From Gammaproteobacteria bacterium (lineage in GTDB: Bacteria > Pseudomonadota > Gammaproteobacteria > Pseudomonadales > Pseudomonadaceae), in contig JAMCWB010000051.1 in assembly GCA_023475025.1 (NCBI GenBank), positions 62,001 through 126,000 on the forward strand: a DNA stretch of 64,000 nt, given 5' to 3'. Both the position numbers and the translations under genes were made by a program. The first letter of the stretch is position 1, and each line of letters opens with the position of its first letter. The notes under the pieces were generated by a model. The model worked only from the letters and a program-made list of their open reading frames with translations. It ran no database searches and was not told the DNA's origin. This document shows, piece after piece, positions 2,915 through 5,968 of this stretch.

Positions 2915-2934
2915 TCGCTGCAGCCATCAATAAA

Positions 2935-2967
2935 AGCGGTCATTTCGGCTAGCGTCGAATGACCGCT
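2935..2967. other. Hairpin between the lipoprotein and chemoreceptor genes
   Basis: Perfect 10-bp inverted repeat AGCGGTCATT (2935-2944) / AATGACCGCT (2958-2967). The T-rich tail is on the minus-strand side only, so for the upstream plus-strand gene it would be a weak or Rho-assisted terminator. Confidence 0.5.
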
Positions 2968-3040
2968 GTTGACAGCCAGACTGCCAGCGGAGCACGTGTA
3001 GGTACCCCCTAATTGCCGAGCAAACATCACCCATAGCAAC

Positions 3041-3067
3041 TAAACTCTGGACCATTGTTACCGATAC
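3041..3067 (+). promoter_or_regulatory. Sigma-28 (FliA)-type promoter of the chemoreceptor gene
   Basis: TAAA (3041-3044), a 15-nt spacer, then ACCGATAC (3060-3067). The FliA consensus is TAAA-N15-GCCGATAA, so the -10 matches 6 of 8. Chemoreceptor genes are commonly FliA-dependent, which supports the call. Confidence 0.55.
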
Positions 3068-3077
3068 AACCGGTAAC
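3057..3077. repeat. Inverted repeat overlapping the chemoreceptor -10 region
   Basis: GTTACCG (3057-3063), 7-nt spacer, CGGTAAC (3071-3077): a perfect 7-7-7 inverted repeat covering the putative sigma-28 -10 and start site. It could be an operator or a leader hairpin. Confidence 0.4.
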
Positions 3078-3103
3078 AGGCTCGGTTTAGCCGGGAGAGG
3101 GCA

Positions 3104-5128
3104 ATGCAACTTATCAATAACCTTTCAATGAAAGCCAAGTTGATCACCTTGGTGCTGCCTTCTTTGCTGGTGATGCTGTTTTTTGCCCTCAATCAAGTAC
3201 AACAAAGCCGAAGTCAGCTCGCGGGATTGCAGCAACTTCAAGCGCTGGCCGATCTGGCTGAACAGGCTGATCCGGTCATCGAAGCCTTGCAGGCCGAGCG
3301 CGGCAACAGCGCGCTTTATCTGGCTTCAGACAACAATACCAATGCAGCCGATCAAACCCGGCGTACCCTGGCAGTGGCCCGGCAACAAACCGACGCTGCC
3401 TTGCAGAGTTATCAAGCGGGGCTGCAGCGATTAACGGCATCGACCACATTCGATCAGGCAGTGACTGACAGCATTAATCAATTTGCCGGGGCAGTCGCTA
3501 ACTTGCAGCGCCTACGCAGCCAGATTGATCAGCGCAGCATTGCCGCCGATGATAGTTTTGCCAGCTTCAGTGGCTGGGTTAATCAGCTGATGGAGCGCGT
3601 GCCACTGCTGATGCGCCGCGCCAGCAACCCTGCCATTGCCAACCAGCTGAATGCTTACTTCATGCTGGCAGAAGCAGTGGAAATGGCCGGGCGTGAACGG
3701 GCTGGTGGAGCAGCCTTGCTGAGGCAGAACAACCATCAGCAGTCGGCGATTATTCCCCTGGCCGACTTGGCGGGACGACAAACCGCTTATTTGCATGGTG
3801 CCAGCAGCCAGTTACCGCGCAACGATGCCGCCAACCTGGCACTGGCTGCGCTGAGTGACGAGCAAGTCAACCGTCACTTTCTGAACCTGCGTAACACCTT
3901 GTTCAGTGGAGGAGGGCAGGCGCGCAGCCTGCAAGCCGATGACTGGTTCACCGCAGCCAGCCAGCGGATTGAACGGATCAACCGGATCCGCGCGCAACTC
4001 TTGCAACAGGTCAATACCATGAGTGCAGATGGCGTTGCCTCGGCACGCATGGCGCTGATCGTCACCTCACTGCTGACACTGGCAGCCCTGATAGTACTCT
4101 TTGTGCTGGCCGCGCTGGTCATCAAGGCGATCAACCAACAGGTACGACAATTGCTGGATGCAGTAAACCACGCCATGGAGCACAAGGACCTGAGCCAGCC
4201 TGTCGCGGTAACCAGCCGGGATGAAATCGGCACTATCGCCAAGGCGGTCAATGATCTGTTCTCGCGCTTCAGTGTCGCGCTCAAACGTATTGATCAGGCC
4301 AGCGTGCAACTGGCAACTGCGACCGAAGAAACCAGCGCCACTGCGGATCAGAACGCAACCCAGATCCGTCAACAACAGGCACAGATCGAACAAATCGCCG
4401 CCGCCTCGGAAGAGATGTCCTCAACGTCGGAAGAGATCTCCAAAAACACCCAGCAAGTAGCCGACGCCTCCAGTCGTTCCATGCAGCGCAGTCAGCAAGG
4501 CAGCGAGGTGTTGAAGACCAACGTTGATCAGATCCGCTCATTGGCTGATTCGGTGCAGGACGTTAACCAGGTGATTAACGAACTGGCGAGCAAGACGGCC
4601 AATATTCGCGAAATCGTTGATGTCATTCGCCAGGTGGCGGATCAGACCAACCTGCTCGCGCTCAATGCAGCAATCGAAGCGGCGCGCGCCGGTGAACATG
4701 GTCGTGGTTTTGCAGTCGTTGCCGACGAGGTACGCACTTTAGCCCAGCAGACCCATGAATCGACCACCAAGATCGAAGATATTGTGAATGATTTCCGTCA
4801 GGTAGCAGAAGCTGCTGGCCGTTCGATCAATACCAGCCATGACATTGCCGATCAGGCCTGCAGCAGCTCAGCCGAGATGGAGCAGAGTATTTCAGAAATA
4901 CTCTCGGACATTCACAGTATTTCCGACATGGCGACCCAGATTGCTGCCGCCTCTGAACAGCAGGTTGCAACGACGCGGGAATTGGCCAGCAACATGGAGT
5001 CAGTCAGCGAGTCAGCCATACTGACACTGACTGGTTCTCAGGAAATCAGCCAGGTGACTCAGGATCAGGCGCGCCTGGCGCGTGAACTGCAGGATCTGGC
5101 CAATGAGTTCAAGGTGGCAAATCAGTAA
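3104..5128 (+). CDS. Methyl-accepting chemotaxis protein with NIT sensor domain
   Basis: A 674-residue transmembrane chemoreceptor. The order is TM1 (about 13-30), a helical periplasmic sensor about 40-310 whose early part ([15 protein letters not shown]) resembles the nitrate/nitrite-sensing NIT domain, TM2 about 316-340, HAMP about 341-395, and the cytoplasmic signalling hairpin to the C terminus. The conserved tip ([19 protein letters not shown]) lies near residues 510-535, with coiled-coil methylation helices either side. It would control CheA/CheW from the membrane. The ligand is inferred to be nitrate/nitrite-like or unknown. The promoter looks sigma-28 dependent. Confidence 0.92.
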
Positions 5129-5252
5129 TCGGAAGCAGTCCGTAACGGCTGTGCTGAACGGTGTTAAACACCTGATGCTTCAATCAGTTAGCCATGACAC
5201 GCTGCTGGCAAGCTGCCACAATAGGCGTTTATGCAAATAAGTGGTCGAGCCC

Positions 5253-5894
5253 ATGCCGTATAACTTTTCTGTGACCAAAGCCGTTGATGAATGGCGCGCC
5301 CGACTGGAAAAATATTCACCTGAGCAGCAGCAACAATTGGTGTTGCTGGCTGAGAATAACAAGGTGTTGCTGGCAGATCATTTCTACCAGCAAATGCTGA
5401 ACGATCCTGAGGCCAACACCTACCTCAGCCATGACGAGGTCAAGAGCCGGCTCAGCCTGTCCATGCAGAACTGGATAGCGGGTCTGTTTGCCGCCACTGA
5501 CAGCAAAGAGCTTGAACGCCTGGCAGCGCAGCAGGTAAAAATCGGTGAAGTCCATGCGCGCATTTCTATTCCGGTACATCTGGTATTGCGCGGTGCCCGC
5601 GCGTTGAAAAATCAGCTGCATCTGATCCTGCAGCAAAGTGACCTGAGCACGGAGCAGGCAAACCAGTTGGATCGCCTTGCTGCAGACATCATTGATCTGG
5701 CCATGGAAGTCATGAGCTTCGCCTTTTCCAGTTCGCATGAGCGTAACTCACGGGCAGAGGAGGCCTACCGCCTGTTTGCGGTGTCACAGAACATTGCCAG
5801 TGAGAAAGACCGACAGCTGCTGCGCCGATCGGATGAAGCACTGTATGCCGCCAAACACAACGGCCGCAACCGGGTAGTGGTAGCTGGCGAGTGA
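5253..5894 (+). CDS. Globin-coupled sensor lacking its GGDEF core (internally deleted diguanylate cyclase)
   Basis: A 213-residue protein. Residues about 1-160 are a protoglobin domain like that of E. coli DosC, with the proximal haem histidine in the motif VHARI (H101) and the conserved IDLAMEVM helix. Residues about 165-190 match the start of the DosC middle domain (YRLF...EKDRQL). The sequence then jumps to RRSDEALYAAKHNGRNRV (about 191-208), the extreme C terminus of GGDEF domains. The GGDEF motif, nucleotide pocket and I-site are absent, so it cannot make c-di-GMP; the deletion keeps frame. An in-frame GTG at 5241 is an alternative start; neither has a clear ribosome site. It may be a haem/oxygen-binding relic or a stand-alone globin sensor. 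Confidence 0.8.
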   Translation: MPYNFSVTKAVDEWRARLEKYSPEQQQQLVLLAENNKVLLADHFYQQMLNDPEANTYLSHDEVKSRLSLSMQNWIAGLFAATDSKELERLAAQQVKIGEVHARISIPVHLVLRGARALKNQLHLILQQSDLSTEQANQLDRLAADIIDLAMEVMSFAFSSSHERNSRAEEAYRLFAVSQNIASEKDRQLLRRSDEALYAAKHNGRNRVVVAGE

Positions 5895-5968
5895 TCGGCT
5901 TTGCTGTTTTGTTACTGCAGGTTGTGGCCAGCTTGCCGCAGCCAGGCTGACGCTGGCATGCTTGCACC

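Follow-up and report, generated by a model that had tools for sequence, protein, structure and literature searches.

What remains of an oxygen-sensing diguanylate cyclase when its gene still encodes the whole sensor and only the very end of the enzyme? A short gene in the window, the 64,000-nucleotide stretch of DNA analysed here (G000:C59:62001-126000), raises this question. A sequence-only reading of the same DNA had proposed either a decayed diguanylate cyclase (DGC) or a stand-alone oxygen/haem sensor. We retain this pair of alternatives, and the conservation of the globin and of the enzyme's tail leans towards the recent loss of a cyclase. With a probability of roughly 0.6, we regard the gene as a young, cyclase-dead and output-less remnant of a DosC-type gene, left after one in-frame deletion on a small islet. 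The genome, 3.10 Mb in size, is inferred to belong to the genus Halopseudomonas. The gene and its parts are the following.

5253..5894, plus strand: truncated DosC-type globin-coupled sensor gene, 213 aa (217 aa from the alternative start, GTG at 5241)
5253..5738, plus strand: sensor globin domain, residues about 1-162, with F44, Y45, S70, M71 and H101 (codon 5553-5555) present
5739..5816, plus strand: linker helix, residues 163-188, up to the Q188 codon (alignment and predicted structure)
5814..5817, plus strand: deletion junction CAG/C, with 243-248 codons gone relative to 13 intact relatives
5817..5894, plus strand: C-terminal remnant of the GGDEF domain, residues 189-213, plus the stop codon (Pfam and alignment)

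The frame runs from the ATG at 5253 to a stop codon at 5892-5894 and has no internal stop. Its GC content at codon positions 1 to 3 (0.64/0.36/0.63) is typical of a coding frame, and its GC3 resembles that of most neighbours. Scans for promoters and terminators gave results near chance level and were left out of the argument. Pfam finds Protoglobin at residues 37-162 (E 5.2e-10, above the cut-off), no match at E up to 1 to DosC_2nd (PF21118), the middle domain with a conserved His-Lys pair, and a GGDEF match that covers only positions 135-161 of the 161 in the profile (E 0.012, below the cut-off). A complete GGDEF domain with its GG[DE]EF motif is absent, and the sensor-type globin is the sole folded domain according to Pfam, the predicted fold and Foldseek. 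When the 13 full-length proteins of the genus are aligned with it, residues 1-188 correspond to the globin and the linker helix, and residues 189-213 to the final 24-27 residues of these proteins. Hence, the in-frame fusion of a globin to a GGDEF tail, proposed from the letters alone, is borne out. Lacking the cyclase active site, the protein is not expected to synthesise c-di-GMP.

The same 13 proteins define the missing part. The truncated protein is collinear with them up to Q188 and resumes at a Leu/Met-Leu/Met-Arg-Arg stretch near the end of the GGDEF domain. The sequence-only reading had described a cyclase core cleanly removed in frame and had suggested an alignment with full-length DosC-like proteins of related genomes; the single gap in this alignment gives good support to one in-frame deletion. 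The loss includes the active site, as proposed, and is somewhat larger than the initial estimate of about 230 residues, since 243-248 codons (729-744 bp) are missing. Taking the intact protein of H. pertucinogena as a reference (475-aa frame; DosC_2nd at 198-306, GGDEF at 314-469, GGEEF at 391), the missing residues are 203-450; they include 104 of the 109 residues of DosC_2nd and 137 of the 156 residues of GGDEF (about 88%). The claim that the first helix of the middle domain was kept needs to be restated, because the linker helix makes up most of what was kept. The crystal construct of the DosC middle domain aligns to 124 residues (192-315) of an intact relative, and only 192-202 precede the deletion, leaving 11 middle-domain residues.

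The join falls between codons 188 and 189, where CAG (5814-5816) is followed by CTG (5817). The glutamine codon at the 5' breakpoint is CAG in 10 of the 13 intact genes, that at the 3' breakpoint in 7 of them, and CAA in the others. With CAG this common at either breakpoint, a microhomology of CAG or CAGC can explain the join, and the homology at the breakpoints, judged from the relatives, was CAG or CAGC at most. Recombination between short repeats in the CTGCTGCGC stretch had been suggested instead, and this part of the earlier proposal is contradicted by the relatives. On the 5' side of the 13 intact genes, codons for Arg, Ala/Gly and Ala stand between the glutamine codon and CTG-CTN or CTG-TTY; the exact CTGCTG occurs on the 5' side in 2 of these genes and on the 3' side in 4. 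An exchange between CTGCTG repeats would have retained the Arg, Ala/Gly and Ala codons, and we rejected it because the three are absent from the window gene.

These observations also bear on whether the truncation is real. The species could have a full-length gene, the contig representing a deletion variant in the population or a misjoin, and the assembly is indeed a draft of 71 contigs with an estimated completeness of 91.4%. However, the two sides of the junction share only 3-4 bases, as judged from intact relatives, which is too little for a repeat-driven misjoin; the reading frame is preserved, and the gene is near position 67 kb of a 182-kb contig. Nor does the assembled part of the genome contain a second DosC core. 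We therefore consider such an artefact improbable. The search for this core, which also led us to reject a split gene with its missing part elsewhere in the assembled 91% of the genome, used the missing stretch of an intact relative. It matched the remnant itself and GGDEF proteins of at most 41% identity. Two of the latter (L045 and L049) also overlap the middle domain in its second half, whose first 51 residues are reached by none of them.

The genome has 45 other GGDEF matches and three other protoglobin proteins, encoded in long frames with GGDEF, such that the loss of the DosC cyclase could be tolerated. Two adjoining protoglobin-GGDEF proteins are encoded on one strand at G000:C53:45450-49227 (L026, L202); Pfam adds PAS and EAL domains to the second, and by eye the end of the first resembles EAL.

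We looked for the short form in three collections, each with one genome per species. Among the 36 other genomes of the genus, 13 have dosC (accepted at E 1e-8 or better), always full length in open frames of 461-499 aa, and of the 58 protoglobin matches obtained across all 37 genomes of the genus, only the window's lies in an open frame shorter than 320 aa. In a scan of GTDB genomes, restricted to the best 80 of 87 loci, from named records, the matched open frame has the GG[DE]EF motif at 78 of the 80. The exceptions are L106, which runs off its contig, and L108, which ends early; L101 has its N-terminal part in another frame, which leaves 77 whole genes among these best 80 of 87. Finally, in a sample of 390 genomes of the order, including the window's own, 8 other genomes match a globin-plus-linker profile at E 1e-12 or better. 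In one of them (G073) the gene is split; the frames in the remaining seven measure 452-520 aa, and one of these (L148, 452 aa) lacks the GG[DE]EF motif. Hence, no second genome with the short form was found among the 36 genus genomes, the 390-genome order sample or the best 80 of 87 loci, and these surveys gave no sign of a short form conserved in the genus or order. Among the titles and opening lines of abstracts, we also found no publication that describes this gene or a naturally occurring DosC devoid of its cyclase.

Some of these loci deserve a mention of their own. The DosC gene of Marinobacterium sediminicola (L101, G073:C1:558397-559988) appears to be split into open frames of 89 and 412 aa. 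That of Comamonas jiangduensis (L108, near 5001-5438) has a frame of 196 aa without a GGDEF motif, where a frameshift is probable. Besides the window's, the only above-cut-off protoglobins of the order sample in frames shorter than 250 aa belong to the genus g41, and they score 72-94 bits on the profile versus 41 for the window protein; a further ten matches in short frames are weaker and miss the cut-off. Five g41 genomes have three stand-alone protoglobin-like frames (192-243 aa) each, in tandem on one strand and about 0.7-0.8 kb apart: G073:C1:3251034-3252954 (M. sediminicola), G234:C27:35160-37098, G274:C2:9898-11808, G314:C4:73732-75632 and G401:C19:9710-11657.

The sensor itself seems to be in good order. 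F44-Y45, S70-M71 and H101 align with F42-Y43, A68-M69 and H98 of EcDosC, so that the residues of the haem pocket, including the proximal His and the distal Phe-Tyr, are all present; the earlier assignment of H101 holds, as it aligns with the proximal histidine of DosC (residue numbers and roles after the excerpt of PMC5549716). An AlphaFold2 model, made with a 38-row alignment of the window and locus proteins, has eight helices, a mean pLDDT of 93.8 and a pTM of 0.80. Its best Foldseek matches are the crystal structures of the globin domains of BpeGReg and EcDosC (TM 0.91-0.94, normalised by target). In crystals, sensor globin domains form dimers (PMC7033309, in excerpt). We infer from the sequence and the model that the truncated protein can still fold and bind haem, and that it probably dimerises.

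Could this protein then be a functional stand-alone sensor, a short haem/O2 regulator kept by selection and acting in trans on a c-di-GMP enzyme or a chemoreceptor? Its fold is confidently predicted, the last helix (133-202) crosses the join uninterrupted in the model, and the 45 other GGDEF matches of the genome are possible partners. The excerpts of the literature offer precedents: single-domain sensor globins are a known class (PMC1457004), and in a related protein the globin domain on its own, studied by cross-linking and titration, stimulated the cognate DGC domain in trans, without O2 control (PMC7033309). In BpeGReg, constructs with the globin and the middle domain and no DGC inhibited motility in S. 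typhimurium, an effect that the authors ascribed to contact with other c-di-GMP proteins (PMC5549716). Yet the globin alone (BpeGReg155) bound haem and gave no in vivo response in the same excerpt, and the middle domain is gone here, which suggests that the short protein would be without output. By a rough moment calculation, the hydrophobic face of the last helix also differs in direction by about 90-100 degrees between the two sides of the join, so that the fusion is unlike an in-register coiled coil and has no sign of a tuned one. Together with the lack of a second genome with the short form in the genus, the order and the best 80 of 87 loci, and of the pairing with the chemoreceptor gene in the compared loci (see below), this makes a stand-alone sensor unlikely, even if worth keeping in mind. 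A role of the short globin in trans is possible but unsupported, and its more specific form, in which an enzyme on a two-gene islet has turned into a regulatory subunit of the adjacent chemoreceptor or of another GGDEF protein, seems to us improbable.

We then asked how old the remnant might be. Before the counts, we dropped L101, L106 and L108 (broken or cut frames) and L148 (452 aa, no GG[DE]EF), as well as 15 rows whose last 200 residues were identical to those of another row, which brought the set from 97 rows to 82. At the 28 globin and linker columns conserved in at least 90% of the 82 sequences, the window protein has no departures, as one would expect of a sensor under selection; since the median is also 0 (maximum 5), this indicates normality rather than special constraint. 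In the tree, it stands beside the H. pertucinogena-type DosC clade, with a weak support of 0.46. Its root-to-tip distance (1.16, median 1.32, midpoint root) suggests that the globin is not evolving fast. Its terminal branch (0.52, median 0.16) is long because close relatives are unsampled.

Over 21 columns, the tail is 57-91% identical to that of the 20 relatives nearest in globin identity, which is above the mean of intact pairs at equal globin divergence for 16 of them and below it for 4 (L062, L113, L068 and L078). Over all 81 relatives, comparisons that are not independent, the similarity is above this mean for 54 and equal or below for 27. A tail long free of constraint should fall below the mean, and one that is mostly above it fits a recent deletion. 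Hence, the deletion looks recent, the tail being about as conserved as in intact enzymes. As the lineage is long and unsampled, the age has to be read from these 21 residues only, and they fit a recent deletion without proving selection afterwards. Selection on a stand-alone globin would equally yield an open frame with no visible decay, which is here seen in a single genome.

The genomic context adds a second element, which the earlier reading of the gene did not include.

3104..5128, plus strand: methyl-accepting chemotaxis protein with NIT, HAMP and MCP signalling domains, 674 aa (Pfam)
2915..5906, no strand: islet of about 3 kb with the chemoreceptor gene and the truncated dosC, missing in five of six relatives; ends approximate

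The NIT-type chemoreceptor gene lies upstream of the truncated dosC on the same strand, and the two genes are unrelated. They are flanked by a lipoprotein-like and a FemAB-like gene, which are adjacent in five of six relatives (G015, G044, G048, G042 and G018), with about 100-230 bp between them versus 3,054 bp in the window. The sixth (G012) showed no lipoprotein gene on the stretch examined. From 5907 on, the sequence again resembles that of G048, and a blastn comparison of 2915-5905 with the stretches of the six relatives gave only chance-level matches. The empty site in the five relatives identifies the gene pair as an islet, which, by this comparison, was most simply gained in the window's lineage. 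We found no convincing flanking repeats at its ends. A stretch of 15 bases upstream of the truncated dosC (5200-5214) is one base off a stretch just upstream of the FemAB-like gene in G044, which is possibly a shared promoter element or chance.

The nearest relatives of the chemoreceptor, in the genus g24 (taken as Marinobacter) and in G011, are 48-54% identical, and neither islet gene has a relative above 58% identity in the searches made. A plasmid source was rejected, as the 84 matching records of the plasmid collection are all below 60% identity (top-ranked row, Halomonas, 43.8%). So was a recurrent chemoreceptor-globin pair: 22 other chemoreceptor loci (L187-L200 and L225-L232), compared with flanks of at most about 1.5 kb, are all without a DosC-like neighbour. 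We also compared 65 DosC-bearing loci, a set that has some genomes twice and does not include L108-L139, with ten window genes. Only weak chemoreceptor matches appeared, in L079 and L106, and the loci of the same genus have none of the other nine window genes nearby. DosC loci of the genus form groups, each with its own shared neighbours. Outside the genus, L065:5001-7931 (Marinobacter sp. 2_MG-2023) has a full-length dosC convergent with a FemAB-like gene 50% identical to the window's. It lacks the chemoreceptor, and the orientation differs, as the truncated dosC and the FemAB-like gene of the window are on one strand. This pairing fits poorly and may be chance or a hint of the islet's origin.

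The deletion could also have occurred elsewhere, the lineage having acquired as a unit a globin-chemoreceptor cassette that was already short and possibly functional. The absence of the islet from the matching site in five of six relatives would agree with this, and together with the lack of any relative above 58% identity it suggests an unsampled donor. However, the other compared loci lack such a cassette, and the tail is still much like that of an active enzyme, so that the short form should not be very old unless its tail is constrained. We regard this scenario as very improbable.

The reading we prefer is a deletion in place. A gene for a DosC-type oxygen-sensing diguanylate cyclase would have sat with a chemoreceptor gene on the islet, and a single in-frame event, perhaps at a microhomology of 3-4 bases, would have deleted about 0.73-0.74 kb, with the middle domain and nearly all of the GGDEF domain. 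The product is predicted to adopt a sensor-globin fold, in which the last helix continues across the join into what was the terminal helix of the GGDEF domain. It would bind haem and probably dimerise and, devoid of transmitter and cyclase, would make no c-di-GMP. The remnant is most likely too young to have decayed. What is new relative to the sequence-only reading is the islet of 3 kb with its chemoreceptor, the intact haem pocket and the conserved tail that looks to point to a recent deletion. The description that suits it best is a DosC gene, recently truncated and part of an accessory islet. As a remnant, it would offer a clean snapshot of the loss of an accessory c-di-GMP enzyme whose sensor has survived. 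A working short form would be a natural case of the sensor half of DosC regulating without its own cyclase, as hinted by engineered truncations. In both cases, the lesson for annotation is that a protoglobin match followed by a weak GGDEF tail is not to be called a diguanylate cyclase.

Compared with known systems, the protein is closest to the DosC, AvGReg and BpeGReg cyclases (Protoglobin - DosC_2nd - GGDEF). It is 43-58% identical to 37 intact homologues over the aligned residues and keeps the distal F-Y and S-M residues and the proximal histidine. Unlike them, it lacks most of the middle domain and of the GGDEF domain, and has presumably lost c-di-GMP synthesis. It shares with stand-alone sensor globins and protoglobins (excerpts of PMC1457004 and PMC4648194) a sensor-type globin without an output domain. 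In contrast to these, it groups among the full-length DosC cyclases, retains a GGDEF tail and would be the product of a deletion, outside the known short clades. The engineered BpeGReg155, BpeGReg266 and BpeGReg296, all three of which bound haem (PMC5549716, in excerpt), likewise have no DGC domain. BpeGReg266 and BpeGReg296 have the middle domain, BpeGReg155 lacks it, and the window form keeps the globin and the linker helix without this domain.
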